Positions 10,289 to 59,731 of a DNA stretch of 64,000 nucleotides are shown one piece after another; positions within the stretch are counted from its first letter, which is position 1; every line of letters starts with the position of its first letter. A program made the translations under genes and the position numbers. The DNA lies in NCBI GenBank assembly GCA_025924315.1, contig JAICIO010000016.1, positions 1 through 64,000 of the forward strand, given 5' to 3'. The notes below the pieces were generated by a model. That model worked only from the letters and a program-made list of their open reading frames with translations, did not search any database and had not been told where the DNA came from. The stretch comes from Phycisphaerae bacterium (lineage in GTDB: Bacteria > Planctomycetota > Phycisphaerae > Tepidisphaerales > Tepidisphaeraceae).

Positions 10289-10365
10289 GTAGGGTCCGCT
10301 TTAGCGGACCGGTTATTTCTGCCCGAACAAAGAGAGTAACCGGTCCGCTGAAGCGCGACCCTACA
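10289..10365. repeat. P1 palindrome, copy 1
   Basis: Two hairpins, GGTCCGCTTTAGCGGACC and GGTCCGCTGAAGCGcGACC, joined by GGTTATT...GTAACC so that the whole unit is also an inverted repeat, bounded by GTAGGG and CCTAC. Lies between the convergent purF and RidA genes. Each half is a GC stem followed by a T-rich GGTTATTT, as in a weak intrinsic terminator. Confidence 0.85.
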
Positions 10366-11115: not shown

Positions 11116-11934
11116 ATGTTACGCGTTCGCGAGACGATGGGGTTGGTTCGTTCGATTCCGCTTTGGGTGGTTCCGCTTCCGCTGCTGGCCATCGTCATGT
11201 TGACGGCCGGTGCGGGTTCCAATCCGTCTGTCCCGGCATCGGTGACGCGCTATGGCACGGCCGTCGCGATGGGCAAGGGCACCGCGCGTTCGTGGGTCAA
11301 CTACGATGAGCAGGGTCTGCCAAAGGCGATTGGTATCTCGATGGAGGAGGCGGCGCTGAAAGGCCTGCCGACGGAATCAACCGGCAAAGCCTGCTGTGCG
11401 GAACACGAGTACGTGCTTGACCTGCCGGTCGACGCGCCGACGCCGTTCAATCACATCGTCATCAACTGGAACCCGAAGGGTCACGAGCCGGCGGGGATCT
11501 ACGATAAGCCGCACTTCGACTTTCACTTCTACATGATGAAGCCGGACGCGCGCCAGAAGATCACCGCCGAAGGCGACGACGTGCAGCGCGCGACGAAGGC
11601 GCTCGCGCAAGACGAAATGCCCGATGGTTATGTGATGGCCCCCGTCCCGCCCATGCCGCGGATGGGCACGCATCTCGTGAACCCCAGGGGCCGCGAGTTT
11701 ACGGGCAAGCCGTTTACCAAGACGCTGATCTACGGCGCCTACGACAGCCGCGTGACGTTCATCGAGCCGATGATTACCAAGGCGTATCTCGAATCGAAGC
11801 CGAACACGACGGAACTGATCGCTCTGCCGAAGAAGTATGCGACCGCCGGCTATTACCCGACCGCGTACACCGTGAAGTGGGACCCAAGCAATCGCGAGTA
11901 TCTCATCGCGCTCGAAGGCCTGACGCAGCGGTAA
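11116..11934 (+). CDS. Exported protein, DUF5602/TTHB210-like
   Basis: 272 residues with an N-terminal signal sequence or anchor: charged start, then hydrophobic PLWVVPLPLLAIVMLTAGAG to about residue 34. The mature part contains CC at about residue 93 in GKACCAEHEY, then HFDFHFYMM, a His/Asp/Phe-rich strand that recurs in TTHB210/DUF5602-type periplasmic proteins, and YYPTAYTVKWD near the end. The family was first noted next to an ECF sigma system in Thermus; no sigma factor adjoins it here. GAGGAG seven bases upstream supports the start at 11116. Function unknown; a metal-binding or ligand-binding periplasmic role is possible from the HxDxHxY pattern. Confidence 0.65.
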   Translation: MLRVRETMGLVRSIPLWVVPLPLLAIVMLTAGAGSNPSVPASVTRYGTAVAMGKGTARSWVNYDEQGLPKAIGISMEEAALKGLPTESTGKACCAEHEYVLDLPVDAPTPFNHIVINWNPKGHEPAGIYDKPHFDFHFYMMKPDARQKITAEGDDVQRATKALAQDEMPDGYVMAPVPPMPRMGTHLVNPRGREFTGKPFTKTLIYGAYDSRVTFIEPMITKAYLESKPNTTELIALPKKYATAGYYPTAYTVKWDPSNREYLIALEGLTQR

Positions 11935-11949
11935 TTCGCTGAGTTACTT

Positions 11950-12026
11950 GTAGGGTCTCCGCTTCAGCGGGACGGTTATTTGTCTGTCGAACAATGAGTA
12001 ACCGGTCCGCTGAAGCGGACCCTACA
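11950..12026. repeat. P1 palindrome, copy 2
   Basis: Starts GTAGGGTCTCCGCTTCAGCG and ends CGCTGAAGCGGACCCTACA. The left arm has small insertions relative to other copies. Convergent gap after the exported protein gene. Confidence 0.85.
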
Positions 12027-12175: not shown

Positions 12176-12248
12176 GGGAGGGCGAGGCCCCCGCCGAGCC
12201 GTTTCATGCGATGACGAAAATCCCTCGGCAGAAGACTCGCCCCTCCCA
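12176..12248. repeat. P9 palindrome, copy 1
   Basis: GGGAGGGCGAGGCCCCCGCC on the left, with GGCAGAAGACTCGCCCCTCCCA as a degenerate right arm. The second copy is at 17527-17599. It ends two bases before the stop codon of the PRC-barrel gene. Confidence 0.75.
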
Positions 12249-12250
12249 GG

Positions 12251-12568
12251 CTATTCAATTTCCTCGACTTCTTCCTTTCGACCTTGCAGTTTCGGATGTT
12301 TCGGATCGGACAGATCCATTTTGTCCCAGGGAATCTTGTGCGTGACTTGTCCCTTTCGGGCGCCGAACGGAAGCAAGGCGGAGTAGGCGAGGCCGGGGAT
12401 GGAGAGACGTTCGATTAGCCCTTGGCGGCCGAGGAGGAAATGAGTGATCACCGTTTCGCCGTCGCGTTCTTCGCAGCGGAATTCTTCGATTCGGCCGACG
12501 TTGTTGCCGTCGAGGTCGATCACCTTTCGGCCGAGGAGTCCCTCGAGATGAACTCGTTTGCCGGCCAT
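12251..12568 (-). CDS. PRC-barrel domain protein
   Basis: 105 residues. The core VHLEGLLGRKVIDLDGNNVGRIEE is a typical PRC-barrel opening (a conserved xGxxVxDxxGxxxGxVxD strand pair), followed by strands VITHFLLG and a charged C-terminus. PRC barrels occur in RimM, photosynthetic reaction-centre H and in bacterial proteins that tether or regulate membrane partners. The start codon at 12568 shares one base with the stop of the preceding gene (TAATG). It is the last gene of the four-gene operon with the Nramp-like transporter, so it may be a cytoplasmic modulator of transport. Confidence 0.82.
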   Translation of the reverse strand: MAGKRVHLEGLLGRKVIDLDGNNVGRIEEFRCEERDGETVITHFLLGRQGLIERLSIPGLAYSALLPFGARKGQVTHKIPWDKMDLSDPKHPKLQGRKEEVEEIE

Positions 12569-12927
12569 TATTGCGACCCCGGAATGTGCCGAATGATGTG
12601 CTCGCATAGCGCCTGTTCCCATCGCAGGGCTGGTGTACGCTCGGCGTCGATAATCACTTTTGTGTCGATGTTGACGAACTTCACCTTCGACCACGCGATG
12701 CGCATCACGCGGCCTCTTCGCAGGCCGAAGCGCCGGCCGAGCCAGCGCACGATGGGTTCGAACTTCGGAGAGATCCGTCGAGCGAGCACCGGAAACCCGC
12801 ATTCGATGAACACGATGCGCGGCGGAGCATTGTCGCGCAGCTCGATCGTCAGGCCGTCGACCATTCCCATCGGCCGCATGTTCTCATCGATGAGCTGGCT
12901 ATCGAGCACGTCGCGCACCAGATCCAT
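12568..12927 (-). CDS. Small PRC-barrel-like protein
   Basis: 119 residues. The N-terminus (DLVRDVLDSQLIDENMRPMGMVDGL) follows the PRC-barrel strand pattern, with the G/D-rich turn that joins the first two strands. A basic middle (RWLGRRFGLRRGRVMRI) and a strand-rich C-terminal half follow. The ATG at 12927 overlaps the transporter stop by one base (TGATG), and its own stop overlaps the next start by one base, so the three genes are very probably translated together. No enzyme motif seen. A regulatory or tethering role for the transporter is inference from position. Confidence 0.72.
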   Translation of the reverse strand: MDLVRDVLDSQLIDENMRPMGMVDGLTIELRDNAPPRIVFIECGFPVLARRISPKFEPIVRWLGRRFGLRRGRVMRIAWSKVKFVNIDTKVIIDAERTPALRWEQALCEHIIRHIPGSQ

Positions 12928-14144
12928 CACGAACCTCCGAGTAACTCCAGTGGAATGGCAACGATGGCCAGCACGAATGCGATGACCACGATCGCGAACA
13001 CGACTCCGTTGCTGAGCATCCCGTTTTTGTGTTTCCCGACTAACTCCTCGTCGTTCATGATGACGAGGAACGGAAAAACGATCAGCGGCAGAATCACGCA
13101 TGTGATCGCGGTGGAAAAGAGCGTGAGCTTGAGCGGGTCGACGCCGACGATCGAGAAGATCGATGCGACCGCGATGAACAATGTGAACATCATGCTGAAG
13201 CGCGTTGCGTTGCCGGGCTTTTCGTTTTCGCCCCACTTCCAACCGAAGGTTTGTCCGTAGACGTAGGCGATGTCGAGGCTCAATTCGAGCGCCGCGCCGG
13301 AGCAGGCGATAAAAAGCGCAGCGCCGAAGATCCAGAATCCCCGGATGCCCAGCGGACTCGATGTGATGAGCGCAACCTGGGTGTAATCATTCACGTCGAT
13401 CTTCCGCGGATGGAGAACCATCGCGGCGCAAATGAGAACGGCGACGGAAACGAGTCCGCCGAAGCCCATGCCGAGCGTCGCGGAGATGCGGTTCGGCCAG
13501 ATGTCGCCTTCGTCCCAGTTGTCTTCCACCGCGCCGCTGGAATAGAAGTTGAACAAGTAAGGGCTGACCGTTGCGCCGATCATGCTCACCACGAGAAACC
13601 AGTAGCGCGATTTCTCATGCGTCGGCAGCGTCGGAATGAGGCCTTTGAACATGTCCGCAGGCGCGGGATGCAGCTTAAAAGCGGCGACGACGAACACCAG
13701 CGTGATCAAACCAAGCAGCGAAACGCCATACTCGATGATTCCGAAGTTGCCGTACCAAAGCGTCGCCCAAACGACTACAGCGACGAGCGGCGCCCACCAT
13801 TGAAACGAGATGCCGGTCATCAATTGCAAACCGATGCAGGCTCCGCCGATTTCCGATGCGAGCACGAGCAGATCGACGAACGTCTCCGCGATGAGCGGAA
13901 CGATGTAGTAATTGAATCCGAGCCGCTTACGCACGGCCGCGGGGAGCGCGTGATGACTGATCGCCGCAAGCCGCCCCGACATCTCGATCAAACAGATCAC
14001 GCAGATCGTTCCCAGGACGATGGGCCAGATGAGTTGAAACCTGAACAGCGCGCCCGCCTGCGCACTGGTCGCGATCGAACCGACCTCGAGAAATCCGCCG
14101 ATGCTCGTGATGATGCCAAGGGCGATTTCCAGAAGCCTTCTCAT
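12927..14144 (-). CDS. Nramp-fold transporter with altered metal-site motifs
   Basis: 405-residue, roughly eleven-helix protein of the Nramp/LeuT fold. In classical Nramp/MntH proteins helix 1 carries DPGN and helix 6 carries MPH, which together coordinate Mn or Fe. Here the aligned positions read EVGS (in GGFLEVGSIATSAQAG) and SPY (in GATVSPYLFNF), so the acidic residue is Glu, the Asn is Ser, and both the soft Met and the His are lost. Flanking helices and the GATV lead-in are conserved, so this is a diverged member, not a misassignment. Its substrate may be a harder cation, as in Nramp-related Mg transporters, or something else. It starts four bases inside the lipoprotein gene (ATGA) and is followed by two PRC-barrel-type genes. 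Confidence 0.85.
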   Translation of the reverse strand: MRRLLEIALGIITSIGGFLEVGSIATSAQAGALFRFQLIWPIVLGTICVICLIEMSGRLAAISHHALPAAVRKRLGFNYYIVPLIAETFVDLLVLASEIGGACIGLQLMTGISFQWWAPLVAVVVWATLWYGNFGIIEYGVSLLGLITLVFVVAAFKLHPAPADMFKGLIPTLPTHEKSRYWFLVVSMIGATVSPYLFNFYSSGAVEDNWDEGDIWPNRISATLGMGFGGLVSVAVLICAAMVLHPRKIDVNDYTQVALITSSPLGIRGFWIFGAALFIACSGAALELSLDIAYVYGQTFGWKWGENEKPGNATRFSMMFTLFIAVASIFSIVGVDPLKLTLFSTAITCVILPLIVFPFLVIMNDEELVGKHKNGMLSNGVVFAIVVIAFVLAIVAIPLELLGGS

Positions 14145-14542
14145 CGCGCCTCCAATCGGCGCGATTCCGGATCAATCGCTGCGATGCGCTGCTTGATCTG
14201 CTGGTTGTCATCCGTTTCGATCGCAAGCTTGATCTTCTCGGCGGAGTCGGAAAGAGCGAGAATCCGCGCTGCGAGCGCCTTCTTTTGATCGGTGTAACCT
14301 TGAACACCCTGCAGCTGTTTCGAAAGTTTGGTTAACGAATTGCGCGCGGCTTCGGTGGTTTGGCGGAGATACTCCGCGGGGACGTGGCCATCGAGCCGCA
14401 ACTGGCTGGCCATTCGCAGCGTCTGCGCCCAGGAGGAAATCCCCTTATCGATTTGCTCGAGCTGGCTCGAGGAATCGCTGCAGCCAGCCGCCGATAGCAT
14501 CAACACAACAACGGCTAGTTGGACCATCGGACGCGTTCTCAT
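14141..14542 (-). CDS. Lipoprotein, helical
   Basis: 133 residues. A lipoprotein signal peptide (VQLAVVVLMLSAAGC) ends in a clear lipobox with the acceptor Cys at residue 21. The mature part is mostly amphipathic helix with heptad-like Leu/Ala spacing (RNSLTKLSKQLQGVQGY ... ARILALSDSAEKIKLAI), suggesting a small helical bundle or coiled coil. It is the first gene of the operon with the Nramp-like transporter and overlaps it by four bases. It may be an envelope partner or scavenging protein for the same substrate; no ligand site is visible. Confidence 0.75.
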   Translation of the reverse strand: MRTRPMVQLAVVVLMLSAAGCSDSSSQLEQIDKGISSWAQTLRMASQLRLDGHVPAEYLRQTTEAARNSLTKLSKQLQGVQGYTDQKKALAARILALSDSAEKIKLAIETDDNQQIKQRIAAIDPESRRLEAR

Positions 14543-15980: not shown

Positions 15981-16055
15981 GTAGGGTCCGCTTCAGCGGA
16001 CCGGTTATTTCTTGTGCGCGAGAGGAGTAACCGGTCCGCTGAAGCGGACCCTACA
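15981..16055. repeat. P1 palindrome, copy 3
   Basis: GTAGGGTCCGCTTCAGCGG on the left and CCGCTGAAGCGGACCCTAC on the right, nearly perfect. It sits between the stop codons of the serine hydrolase and the carboxypeptidase-like-fold protein. Confidence 0.88.
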
Positions 16056-16066
16056 GAACCTCGGAC

Positions 16067-17542
16067 CTAAAAATCATCCGCCGTCAGCTCGACACCGTCT
16101 TTTACTTCGCCGGGTTTGAGATCGACGATCACCGCCGATTCTTCCTTCGACCTTTGCCGGGCCTCGACAAACGGTGCCACCTGGATCGACTGCTCGGTCG
16201 GCCGGATCAGGGTCAGTTCGAAATGGCCGCTTTTATCGGTGTGGGTGTTCGGTCCGCTGAAACTCGCATCGAGATGGTCTGTCGCGAAGGCTTTCACTTC
16301 GCGATTGGCGACGGGGTGGCCGTTCTTATCGACGACTCGACCCTTCACCGTCGCGCCGCGGGTGAGGTGGATCTTGATGTTGTCGATCTGCTGCCCGGGC
16401 GTCGTTTTCATCGGCGTGCTCACACCCTCTGCGAAGGACTGGCCCATGTCGCGCGCCATCACGTTGCACGCTTCGTCAAAACTCGCGGGAATTTTCAGTT
16501 CAAACGTGCCGTCGTCTTTGGTGATGACCATGAGCTTCGACGACACAACGATGTCGCCCGATTTGGAAATGATCGGCTCGACCATCGCTCCGCCGCGCGG
16601 TTTGCCCGTGGGATCCACGACAAGTCCGCTGACGGTCACCGCCTTCTCCATGAAGATCGTGACCGGCTTCATGTCCGGTTTGATATCGAAACCCGCGACG
16701 TCGGTCTGCGAGACGAGCCCGACGCCCTCGGGCGATTTGCCGTCCGGGTCGAGGTTGTCTTCGGACCAGAATCGCGCGTGATTCGGACTGGAGATTACGA
16801 ATACCAGCTTGCCGGGGAATAAGTTCGGGAATGTGACGATGCCGTGCGAATCGCTCGTCGCGGTCATCTGCTTTTGATTCCTGATCCAGATTTTCACGCC
16901 TTCGATCGGCACGGTCGATTCGCTGTCGACAAATTTCGCGACGAACGAAATCCCCGCGGAAAGTTGAATGTCCTGCGTCTTGTGCTCACCGTCGCCGATC
17001 GTCGCCGCAATGCGCGCAACGCCCGCGCCCGGCACGCGCACCTGCAGGTGATAATCGTCCGCCGCGACGAGTAGCTTGTAATGCCCATCCGCATCGGTCG
17101 TCGTCGTCGTCCAGACGTGATCGATATAGAAATGATCCGCCTTCTTCGGCCCCTGATCGCCACGAACTTCGACATTCGGCAGCGGCTTCCCATCCGACGA
17201 TCGCACGACGCCCTCGAAATACGTGTGGTCGTTCAGGTGTATAACGAGATCGCCGACGCCGGTGTCCTGCTTCAGAATGTAGTGGGGCGAGAGACCTTTC
17301 TTCGAGAATCGCAGCTCAATGAGCTGATTGGGCGCGAGACCCTTGAGAAGAAACGCGCCGTTCTTGTCCGTCCGCGTCTGATCGCCCGGCTGGCTCGTCC
17401 ACGCATCGACGAGCACGCCTTCGATCGGTTGATCTTTGTCGTTGAGCACACGGCCGGCAATCTGCCCGCGGCGTACATCAGCAAATGCATTGGTAGCAAA
17501 TGCAATGACTACGATAAGCAACCAGATGGGAGGGCGAGGCAC
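16067..17542 (-). CDS. Secreted protein with repeated carboxypeptidase-regulatory-like domains
   Basis: 491 residues. A signal peptide (IWLLIVVIAFATNAFA) is followed by several seven-strand beta-sandwich units of the carboxypeptidase regulatory-like (CarboxypepD_reg/SpaA-like) type. Each is marked by GxVxxxxGxPxxGxxV: AGRVLNDKDQPIEGVLV at about residue 29, EGVVRSSDGKPLPNVEV at about 110, SGLVVDPTGKPRGGAMV, and KGRVVDKNGHPVANREV. Such proteins are periplasmic or surface adhesive/structural modules. The start is a GTG at 17542 that lies inside a P9 palindrome, so the repeat arm encodes the first residues of the signal peptide (PRPP). No catalytic domain is present. Confidence 0.8.
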   Translation of the reverse strand: MPRPPIWLLIVVIAFATNAFADVRRGQIAGRVLNDKDQPIEGVLVDAWTSQPGDQTRTDKNGAFLLKGLAPNQLIELRFSKKGLSPHYILKQDTGVGDLVIHLNDHTYFEGVVRSSDGKPLPNVEVRGDQGPKKADHFYIDHVWTTTTTDADGHYKLLVAADDYHLQVRVPGAGVARIAATIGDGEHKTQDIQLSAGISFVAKFVDSESTVPIEGVKIWIRNQKQMTATSDSHGIVTFPNLFPGKLVFVISSPNHARFWSEDNLDPDGKSPEGVGLVSQTDVAGFDIKPDMKPVTIFMEKAVTVSGLVVDPTGKPRGGAMVEPIISKSGDIVVSSKLMVITKDDGTFELKIPASFDEACNVMARDMGQSFAEGVSTPMKTTPGQQIDNIKIHLTRGATVKGRVVDKNGHPVANREVKAFATDHLDASFSGPNTHTDKSGHFELTLIRPTEQSIQVAPFVEARQRSKEESAVIVDLKPGEVKDGVELTADDF

Positions 17543-17599
17543 CCGCCGAGCCGCATTTTGCTAACGAATACCGGCTCGGCTGGAGCCTCGCCCTCCCAT
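17527..17599. repeat. P9 palindrome, copy 2, overlapping a gene start
   Basis: TGGGAGGGCGAGGCACCCGC pairs with GCGGCTC-type arm ending GGAGCCTCGCCCTCCCA. The GTG start and first codons of the gene ending at 16067 lie in its left arm. Confidence 0.85.
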
Positions 17600-32885: not shown

Positions 32886-32961
32886 GTAGGGTGCGCTTCA
32901 GCGCACCAGTTATTGTCTCTACACGCACAATGAATAACCGGTGCGCTGAAGCGCACCCTAC
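32886..32961. repeat. P1 palindrome, copy 4 (variant), supplies a stop codon
   Basis: Variant arms GTAGGGTGCGCTTCAGCGC and GCGCTGAAGCGCACCCTAC, with compensated changes that preserve the stems. The TAG stop codon of the gene on the minus strand (32958-32960) lies in its right end. Confidence 0.85.
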
Positions 32962-48849: not shown

Positions 48850-48876
48850 GCATCTCGCACCCACGCCTCAATCTTC

Positions 48877-48951
48877 TAGGGTCCGCTTCAGCGGACCGGT
48901 TATTCGCTTTTTGATGTAGACAATAACCCGTCCGCTTCAGCGGACCCTACA
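48877..48951. repeat. P1 palindrome, copy 5
   Basis: TAGGGTCCGCTTCAGCGG left arm, AATAACCCGTCCGCTTC...GGACCCTACA right arm. In the right half the inner loop reads TTCA where other copies read TGAA, so that half keeps its hairpin in the opposite loop orientation. Convergent gap. Confidence 0.85.
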
Positions 48952-57306: not shown

Positions 57307-59658
57307 ATGATCGACATCAGCCGCAGAGATATGATACGAGCCGCGGTGATCGCAGGAGCTGCGATGCTCACATCGGATGTTTCATCGGCGCTTTCGGACG
57401 AATCGCGCGAGAAGAGGTCGCCGCTCGTTCTGTGGTACCGACAGCCCGCAAAAGAGTGGGTCGAAGCGCTTCCACTCGGCAACGGGCGGATCGGCGCGAT
57501 GCTCTTCGGCGGAGTCGACGAAGAGCGGCTGCAGCTGAACGAAGACACGCTCTGGGCCGGCGGGCCGTACGATCCGATCAGTCCCGAAGCGCACGACGCG
57601 CTGCCTGAAGTTCGCCGGCTGATTTTCGCCGGCAAATACGCGGAAGCGCGCGATCTCGTAGCGCAAAAGGTGCTCGCGCGGCCCGTTCGGCAGATGCCGT
57701 ATCAAACCGTCGGAGATTTGATTCTTCGCTTCGATGGCGAGAACCCGGCCAGCGATTATCGGCGCGAATTGGATCTCGATCGGGCCGTCGCGCGCGTCAC
57801 CTTCACTTCCGGCGCGATCCGATTTGTGCGCGAAGTGTTCGCTTCGCCGGTTGATCAGGTAATCCTCGTTCGACTGACTGCGGACAAGCCCGCGGCGATC
57901 AACGTGACGCTCTCGATAAAAACGCCGCAGCAGGCGAGCGCGTCGATTGAGCAACCCAGCACGCTTGTCGTGAGCGGCAAGAATGGCGACGCGTACGGCA
58001 TCGAGGGGAAGCTCAAGTTCGAAGCGCGCGTCCGCGCGATGAGCGACGGCGGGGCGATCGAAGCCGGCAAGGACGAGTTGCGTATTCGCGATGCGAACAG
58101 CGTGACGCTGCTGATCGCGATGGCGACGAGTTACAAGCGCTACGACGACATCACCGGCGATCCGGCTTCGCTGACGCGAACGGCAATCGAGAAAGCCGCG
58201 CCTCGACCGTACGACGCGATGCTCGCGGATCACATCGCGGAGCACCGCCGGCTCTTTCGCCGCGTGTCGATCGATCTCGGCACGACCGCGGCGGCGAATC
58301 GTCCGACCGACGAGCGCATCAATGATTCCGCGAAGAGCAACGATCCGGCGCTGGCGGCGCTCTATTACCAGGTCGGGCGGTATCTGCTGATCTGCAGCTC
58401 GCGGCCCGGCACGCAGCCGGCCAATCTGCAAGGCATCTGGAACGACAGCCAGTTGCCGCCATGGGGCAGCAAGTACACCATCAACATTAACACGGAGATG
58501 AACTTCTGGCCGGTTGAATCCACAAACTTGGCGGAGTGCGCGCTGCCGCTCTTCCGCCTCGTGAAAGAGATCGCGGAAACCGGCGCGACGACCGCGAAGA
58601 AGATGTACGGCGCTCGCGGCTGGGTCGCGCATCACAACACCGATCTATGGCGCGCCACCGCGCCGATTGACGGCCCCAACTACGGCATGTGGCCCACCGG
58701 CGGGGCGTGGCTTTGTCAGAATCTCTGGGAGCATTATCTCTACAGCAACGACCTCGAGTATCTGCGCCAGCTTTATCCGATTCTGAAAGGCGCCGCCGAG
58801 TTTTTCGTGGACACGCTTGTTGAAGAACCGACGCACAAGTGGATTGTCACCTGTCCATCGCTCTCGCCGGAGAACGAGCACCACAAAGGCGTCGCCACCT
58901 GCGCCGGCCCAGCGATGGATCAGCAGATCCTTCGCGATCTTTTCGCAAATTGCATTCGCGCTTCGGAATTGCTCGCCGTCGATGAAGAGTTTCGCGCGCA
59001 GCTCACGCAAACGCGGGCGCGTCTCGCGCCGGATCAGATCAGCAAGTCCGGGCATCTGCAGGAATGGCTCGAGGATTGGGATCTTCAGGTGGACGATCTT
59101 CATCATCGTCACGTGTCGCATCTCTATGCGCTCTTCCCGAGCAATCAGATCGATCCGCGAACGACGCCGGAGCTTGCGGCGCCGGCGCGCAAGTCGCTCG
59201 AGATTCGTGGCGACATGGCGACAGGCTGGGCGATCGCGTGGCGGATCAATCTGTGGGCGCGGCTGGGCGACGGCGAGCGTGCGCACAAAATTGTGAAGAT
59301 GCTCCTCGATCCATCGCGCACCTATCCGAATATGTTCGACGCGCATCCGCCGTTCCAGATCGACGGCAACTTCGGCGGAACGAGCGGCATCACCGAAATG
59401 CTCCTGCAAAGCCACGGCGGAGAGATTCGCTTGCTGCCGGCATTACCCAGCGCGTGGCCGAACGGATCGATCAAAGGCATTCGCGCCCGCGGCGGGTTTG
59501 AAGTCGATCTCGCGTGGGCGAACGGCGCACCCACTCGCGCGGTTATTCGCGCCGCACGCAGGGGCCCATGCCGCCTTCGCTACCGCGATCGCGAAGCGGC
59601 AACTGAGATGCGCGCCGGACAGAGCTACGCATTCGATGCTCAATTAAGTCGAGTGTAG
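57307..59658 (+). CDS. GH95 alpha-L-fucosidase/galactosidase
   Basis: 783 residues. Twin-arginine-type start (SRRDMIRAAVIAGAAML), suggesting folded export. The N-terminal domain opens with the GH95 block EWVEALPLGNGRIGAMLFGG followed by LNEDTLWAGGP, where the family residues bind the substrate. The alpha/alpha barrel carries NLQGIWNDSQLPPWGSKYTININTEMNFWP, the GH95 catalytic region (Asn/Glu/Asp), and HRHVSHLYALFP near the end. GH95 enzymes release alpha-1,2-L-fucose or galactose from glycans; the actual sugar is not predictable. Its TAG stop codon is the TAG of a P1 repeat. Confidence 0.93.
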   Translation: MIDISRRDMIRAAVIAGAAMLTSDVSSALSDESREKRSPLVLWYRQPAKEWVEALPLGNGRIGAMLFGGVDEERLQLNEDTLWAGGPYDPISPEAHDALPEVRRLIFAGKYAEARDLVAQKVLARPVRQMPYQTVGDLILRFDGENPASDYRRELDLDRAVARVTFTSGAIRFVREVFASPVDQVILVRLTADKPAAINVTLSIKTPQQASASIEQPSTLVVSGKNGDAYGIEGKLKFEARVRAMSDGGAIEAGKDELRIRDANSVTLLIAMATSYKRYDDITGDPASLTRTAIEKAAPRPYDAMLADHIAEHRRLFRRVSIDLGTTAAANRPTDERINDSAKSNDPALAALYYQVGRYLLICSSRPGTQPANLQGIWNDSQLPPWGSKYTININTEMNFWPVESTNLAECALPLFRLVKEIAETGATTAKKMYGARGWVAHHNTDLWRATAPIDGPNYGMWPTGGAWLCQNLWEHYLYSNDLEYLRQLYPILKGAAEFFVDTLVEEPTHKWIVTCPSLSPENEHHKGVATCAGPAMDQQILRDLFANCIRASELLAVDEEFRAQLTQTRARLAPDQISKSGHLQEWLEDWDLQVDDLHHRHVSHLYALFPSNQIDPRTTPELAAPARKSLEIRGDMATGWAIAWRINLWARLGDGERAHKIVKMLLDPSRTYPNMFDAHPPFQIDGNFGGTSGITEMLLQSHGGEIRLLPALPSAWPNGSIKGIRARGGFEVDLAWANGAPTRAVIRAARRGPCRLRYRDREAATEMRAGQSYAFDAQLSRV

Positions 59659-59731
59659 GGTCCGCTTCGGCGGACCGGTTATTTCTCCTGTCGGGAATGC
59701 GAATAACCGGTCCGCTGAAGCGGACCCTACA
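59655..59731. repeat. P1 palindrome, copy 6, fills a convergent gap exactly
   Basis: GTAGGGTCCGCTTCGGCGG to CCGCTGAAGCGGACCCTACA. Its TAG at 59656-59658 is the GH95 stop, and two bases beyond its other end lies the TAA of the GH88-like gene. So the gap between the two stop codons is essentially the repeat. Confidence 0.9.

Follow-up and report, generated by a model that had tools for sequence, protein, structure and literature searches.

What does a carrier of the Nramp fold transport once most of its metal ligands have been exchanged, and why should its gene be kept together with those for two PRC-barrel-like proteins and a lipoprotein? Both questions are raised by a four-gene locus (the quartet) on a Phycisphaerae contig, of which a stretch of 64,000 nucleotides, here called the window, was analysed. 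The same genome also encodes MntH, two MgtE proteins and one CorA. The quartet is an addition to these usual Mn and Mg importers, and because they are already present the need that it meets is not obvious. Nramp carriers have been studied as single-subunit transporters, and the quartet suggests a transport system of several parts that has not been described before. Nramp-related carriers as such are already known; what is new is a clade of them with a fixed set of companions.

The reading that we favor, at slightly better than even chances, is that the quartet carriers form an uncharacterised Nramp-related clade of divalent-cation permeases, served by a cytoplasmic PRC module and an outer lipoprotein; we infer both the substrate and the contact between the parts.

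Organization and conservation of the quartet

The minus strand carries all four genes. The gene for the predicted lipoprotein (LIPO, 133 aa; 14141-14542), an open reading frame with the lipobox SAAGC and its cysteine at Cys21, is followed by that for the Nramp-like carrier (405 aa, 11 TM helices, Pfam PF01566; 12927-14144). Then come the genes for two PRC-barrel-like proteins: PRC1 (119 aa; 12568-12927), assigned from weak Pfam PRC matches in relatives and from profile homology to PRC2, and PRC2 (105 aa; 12251-12568), assigned from Pfam PRC matches across relatives. The preliminary description had taken this arrangement for an operon of a diverged Nramp, two PRC-barrel proteins and a lipoprotein, all joined by one- or four-base overlaps. 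The overlaps are as claimed, with 4 bases shared by LIPO and carrier (14141-14144), 1 by carrier and PRC1 (12927) and 1 by PRC1 and PRC2 (12568), and the operon is real: profile searches with the four proteins found the genes adjacent and in identical order in 17 of 17 intact relatives, where they mostly overlap or abut.

Five phyla are represented among the intact quartets (Planctomycetota, Gemmatimonadota, Cyanobacteriota, Pseudomonadota and Actinomycetota). Of the 17 loci, several rhizobial ones are near-duplicates, which leaves about a dozen independent cases. Relatives at 49-63% identity were found in Phycisphaerae/Phycisphaerales, in the cyanobacterium Elainella saxicola and in two Gemmatimonadota genomes, others at 49-53% are plasmid-borne in Rhizobium, Mesorhizobium, Caballeronia and Paraburkholderia, and the most distant quartet (34%) is carried by a Streptomyces plasmid. 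A scan of genome contigs returned no relatives with a single sequence and five with a three-row profile. Within samples of the window's own family, class and phylum, to which the frequency figures apply, the carrier occurs in 3 of 26 genomes of the family, and no further members of the clade turned up among 397 genomes of the class or 392 of the phylum. This sparse occurrence looks like horizontal spread or loss. A decayed quartet was also seen on a Paraburkholderia sabiae plasmid (locus L044, 4932-6884), where the reading frames of carrier and PRC1 are broken by frameshift.

Among the intact loci examined the carrier was never found without its three companions, and a PRC-barrel neighbor, for which a search of conserved neighborhoods had been proposed, proved to be a constant partner in all 17. 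As controls we took 24 loci that surround other Nramp-type genes; the same MntH gene is at the centre of two of these. Canonical Nramp/MntH genes in these loci lack the quartet's companions; the lipoprotein occurs in none of the 24, and the sole PRC-like match adjoins the gene of an Nramp-related magnesium transporter (NRMT). It could be argued that the PRC and lipoprotein genes are passengers that share the carrier's promoter, contact between the products being a prediction and the AF2 model of PRC1 (pLDDT 42) being too low in confidence to set a fold. That said, the retention of all three companions in every intact relative over five phyla, mostly as overlapping or abutting genes, and the lipoprotein's absence from the control loci leave this idea scarcely credible. 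Linkage as constant as this shows that the genes share a function; it does not show contact.

The carrier and its altered site

The carrier covers the full PF01566 Nramp model (196.5 bits, E 8.9e-58; curated cut-off 29.8) and lies far under the NCBIfam MntH/nramp cut-offs (98.7 against 430 bits, and 43 against 272.5 bits). Its nearest solved protein by sequence is EleNRMT (E 7e-31), which is also the best PDB match of its predicted fold (TM-score 0.88; AF2 model with pLDDT 74.8 and pTM 0.78). With canonical Nramp/MntH proteins such as DraNramp and EcoDMT it shares PF01566, the LeuT fold of 11 TM helices and the TM3 Glu, but the DPGN, the MPH and the TM10 Gln of those proteins are all lost.

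These changes were read from an alignment that sets the quartet carriers beside canonical Nramps, NRMTs and further Nramp-related proteins. In the window carrier, DPGN of TM1 has become EVGS (residues 20-23), A-x-x-M-P-H of TM6 has become A-x-x-S-P-Y (A191xxS194-P-Y), and the TM10 Gln is a Thr (T345); the last position is held by Met, Thr or Leu within the clade, and by Met in 15 of its 17 members. EVGS and SPY occupy the very columns of DPGN and MPH, which rules out misalignment as the source of the altered site. The preliminary description had gone further, holding that the canonical site is altered at almost every ligand while the fold is retained. Most ligands are indeed changed and the fold is kept, but "almost every" is too strong: the TM6 Ala of AxxM is retained in the window carrier, and the TM3 Glu (E98) in all members of the clade.

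Members of the clade have Glu as the TM1 acid, except for two with Asp (DVGA in Elainella, DIGD in Streptomyces), and the change from acid to Glu is conservative. The fourth TM1 position varies (S, A, N, Q, E or D); this would be unusual in a strict metal ligand and counts against the cation-permease reading. Ser, Thr or Ala stands in for the TM6 Met. One Glu in TM8 (E287) is invariant in the clade and missing from the canonical and NRMT rows. Three tryptophans (W130, W210 and W304) are likewise invariant and private to the clade, and map to the cytoplasmic side in a topology built from the helices of the model and an N-in start.

Transition-metal carriers have the site DxxN-AxxM, and NRMTs have DxxG-TxxA/T (PMC8806188). 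The former is present in no member of the quartet clade in the site alignment, and the window carrier, with ExxS-AxxS, does not have the latter either. The plant Nramp-related aluminium transporters (NRAT) resemble the carrier in their TM6 AxxT/S, where a hard oxygen replaces Met; they differ in being eukaryotic and in keeping DxxN in TM1.

Could the site changes be neutral drift in an ordinary Mn2+/Fe2+ importer? The full-length PF01566 match would fit, as would the finding that EcoDMT given NRMT site residues still transports Mn2+ (PMC8806188). However, the changes are fixed over five phyla, the clade has private invariant residues of its own, and a canonical MntH is already present in the genome, all of which makes drift highly improbable.

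A distinctly unlikely alternative, though a better one than drift, is transport of a non-metal solute or a monovalent cation by the carrier, with the private TM8 Glu and the lost soft ligand marking a change of substrate class of the kind seen in other LeuT-fold families. Consistent with this are the change of most canonical ligands, including TM10 Gln to Met, Thr or Leu, the private E287 and the variable fourth position of TM1. There is also a neighborhood of possible relevance in another Nramp-related branch, the PGTxTT group, one gene of which, on a Haloferax mediterranei plasmid (L043, 4001-7219), is followed directly by hydantoinase/oxoprolinase genes; from these neighbors, the PGTxTT branch may carry a non-metal. 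Against a non-metal or monovalent substrate for the quartet carrier, every member keeps the acidic TM1 residue and the TM3 Glu, the closest characterised relatives carry Mg or Mn (PMC8806188), and no catabolic genes recur beside the quartet among the relatives' loci.

Phylogenetic position

In an IQ-TREE tree of 45 carriers, with rows picked for convenience and the root set on canonical Nramps, the quartet carriers group together as a single clade (support 100/100). It stands apart from two of the families with which a phylogenetic comparison had been suggested, the canonical Nramps (100/100) and the NRMTs (94/93), and from two other Nramp-related groups. The SDDDP group is sister to the NRMT rows, and the quartet clade, outside the NRMT branch, is sister to the NRMTs and the SDDDP group together (joining node 98/96). 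Given this choice of rows and root, the tree shows the distinctness of the quartet clade rather than its deep history. Ray et al. (PMC12873925) treat Nramp-related proteins as paraphyletic and diverse, and as lacking the canonical motifs; the quartet clade would be one unnamed branch among them.

The PRC-barrel-like proteins and the NRMT partner

Against Pfam PRC (PF05239), PRC2 of the window scores 16.3 bits (E 0.01), under the cut-off of 21.2. Eleven of 12 PRC2 members have a PRC match, so that the signal is consistent though weak, with the Streptomyces copy alone over the cut-off (22.9), and the top PDB profile matches of PRC2, also weak (E 0.02-0.05), are PRC-barrel proteins. PRC1 of the window has no Pfam PRC match, and PRC is the commonest Pfam match of the PRC1 members (8 of 13 at E<=1, weak, best 9e-4). 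The two proteins are homologues of one another (hhalign 97.3%, E 1.6e-11). In a Phycisphaerales genome (L006/L026) and on an actinobacterium-like contig (L060) they are fused into one protein, and a MAFFT alignment of the fused L026 protein with single PRC1 and PRC2 rows stacked PRC1 on PRC2. Among the weak Foldseek matches of the low-confidence PRC1 model, which we set aside, several were to H subunits of reaction centres and to CdpB PRC proteins. The L060 contig (MT836826.1, from faeces and labelled 'Bacteriophage sp.') holds the C-terminal half of a quartet carrier, the fused PRC1-PRC2 and a glycoside-hydrolase-like gene. Phage carriage of the quartet was considered on account of it and rejected; the neighbor genes point to a bacterial contig.

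An MgtE-N-like gene adjoins most NrmT genes, with its role left open (Shin et al. 2014, PMC4072509). In the seven such NRMT partner proteins that we examined, all of which adjoin an Nramp-type gene, the architecture is PRC-PRC-MgtE_N-CBS; the first PRC exceeds the Pfam cut-off in four, and the second is visible by profile comparison only. The PRC2 profile aligns with the first PRC (E 1.8e-7) and that of PRC1 with the second (E 3.6e-7). Tandem PRCs next to an Nramp-type carrier are thus common to both systems, but in the quartet they are two stand-alone proteins encoded by separate genes in swapped order, and MgtE_N and CBS are absent. Nor is there an MgtE_N(-CBS) gene beside the window carrier, which only PRC1, PRC2 and the lipoprotein adjoin. 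PRC barrels as partners of an Nramp-type carrier had been put forward as something unheard of. For the papers that we searched, for PRC-barrel with Nramp, MgtE or the full family names, this stands, as none deals with the pairing; the PRC pair of NRMT's MgtE-like partner is nevertheless a genomic precedent.

These likenesses raise the question of whether the quartet is simply an Mg2+ importer of the NRMT kind, its partner reduced to the PRC pair by loss of the MgtE_N-CBS part. NRMT/NrmT proteins (EleNRMT, C. acetobutylicum CA_C0685) share with the carrier the Nramp fold, the loss of the TM6 Met and His, and the TM3 Glu, and have their PRC domains in an adjacent partner gene. Add to this that EleNRMT is the nearest structure, that the PRC pairs are homologous and that the quartet clade is sister to the NRMTs and the SDDDP group, and the idea has its attractions. 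We nonetheless think it fairly unlikely. The site is ExxS-AxxS, not DxxG-TxxA (motif from PMC8806188), the quartet carriers form a separate clade of full support, and a lipoprotein has been added. An Rfam scan at gathering score found no riboswitch, M-box included, in the window and 12 relatives. MgtE and CorA are already encoded in the genome, and an NrmT relative from A. capsulatum was reported to act mainly on Mn (PMC4072509).

The loops of the carriers bear on where the PRC pair would be placed. In a test that ignores tree structure and relatedness, conservation was higher in cytoplasmic than in outer loops for the quartet clade (0.76 vs 0.62, p 8e-4) and for the NRMTs (0.68 vs 0.53, p 1e-3); the values for canonical Nramps were 0.60 and 0.56 (p 0.27). 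Higher conservation of cytoplasmic loops in the PRC-partnered clades, and not in the PRC-less canonical Nramps, is suggestive of a PRC pair on the cytoplasmic side, as far as such sequence comparisons go.

The lipoprotein

LIPO has a lipobox (...SAAG/C) and a mostly helical tail. Its Cys21 is invariant in 9 aligned relatives, which makes it a predicted bacterial lipoprotein by the criterion of a signal peptide with a lipobox cysteine, and in 17 of 17 intact loci the gene just upstream of that for the carrier encodes a homologue (E <= 7e-11). The Streptomyces relative retains LIPO as well, and because this host is Gram-positive and monoderm, the protein probably belongs to the cytoplasmic rather than the outer membrane.

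A working model

We propose that the carrier imports a divalent cation, most likely Mn2+, Fe2+ or Mg2+, through the alternating-access cycle of the LeuT fold, and that it probably does not use the canonical proton pathway. Hard oxygen ligands of E20, S23, S194 and E98 would hold the ion, perhaps aided in most relatives by the Met that stands in place of the TM10 Gln. PRC1 and PRC2 are proposed to act as one module, because they are fused in two relatives; this module would dock on the conserved cytoplasmic loops and set the activity or stability of the carrier without a CBS sensor, and a like role has been proposed for the PRC-PRC-MgtE_N-CBS protein on NRMTs. The lipoprotein would sit beside the carrier on the outer face of the cytoplasmic membrane. 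Certainty falls in the order given here: that the four products probably act together, that the PRC pair works from the cytoplasmic side, and that the carrier passes a divalent cation.

A bolder version, which we hold possible and yet doubtful, is an obligate four-component system with a new, acid-rich substrate site (E20, E98 and perhaps E287), a substrate outside the Nramp/NRMT range and a PRC pair that gates the carrier.

The fixed companions, taken with the homology of the PRC proteins to the NRMT partner domains, suggest that Nramp-related carriers generally have PRC modules as partners in the cytoplasm. The role of NrmT's MgtE-like neighbor, a question dating from 2014, becomes testable in a simpler system that lacks CBS, and the fixed ligand changes amount to a natural experiment on substrate switching at the Nramp site.

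Genome context and possible regulation

Some indication of how the rhizobial copies are controlled comes from their upstream regions. In 8 of 9 alphaproteobacterial loci, the lipoprotein gene is preceded at 34-68 nt by GGAAC, which (C/G)xTT follows 16-17 nt further on. This broad pattern was defined after the alignment had been viewed, and the p-values obtained with it serve as a rough indication. The R. etli EcfG promoter is GGAAC-N16-CGTT, with GGAAC as the -35 element (PMC3892343); its full consensus is matched by no more than two loci, both R. leguminosarum-type and closely related. From such motifs, the rhizobial operon may be under the general stress sigma factor EcfG. Several rhizobial copies lie near stress-type genes (ferritin-like, DUF892, trehalose-6-phosphate synthase and low-affinity iron permease), and these neighbors together with the GGAAC element hint at a stress-related role in rhizobia.

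In the window, a gene with a TTHB210-like domain (PF18197, 64 bits; 11116-11934, plus strand) neighbors the quartet and lies outside it. The intergenic regions also hold a dispersed palindrome, with arms near CCGCTGAAGCGGACCCTAC about 37 nt apart, in five copies (11958-12025, 15981-16054, 32886-32961, 48876-48950 and 59655-59730) and as a single arm (10289-10307); its arms give 10 matches in the window against 0 expected, and it resembles a REP/MITE-type element. Three copies of a second, short repeat, GAGGGCGAGGCNCCCGCCGAGCC, are present against 0 expected (12178-12200, 17530-17552 and 17573-17595), one of them just downstream of the quartet; this repeat creates spurious ORFs that read REGEAPAEP/AGASPSH.
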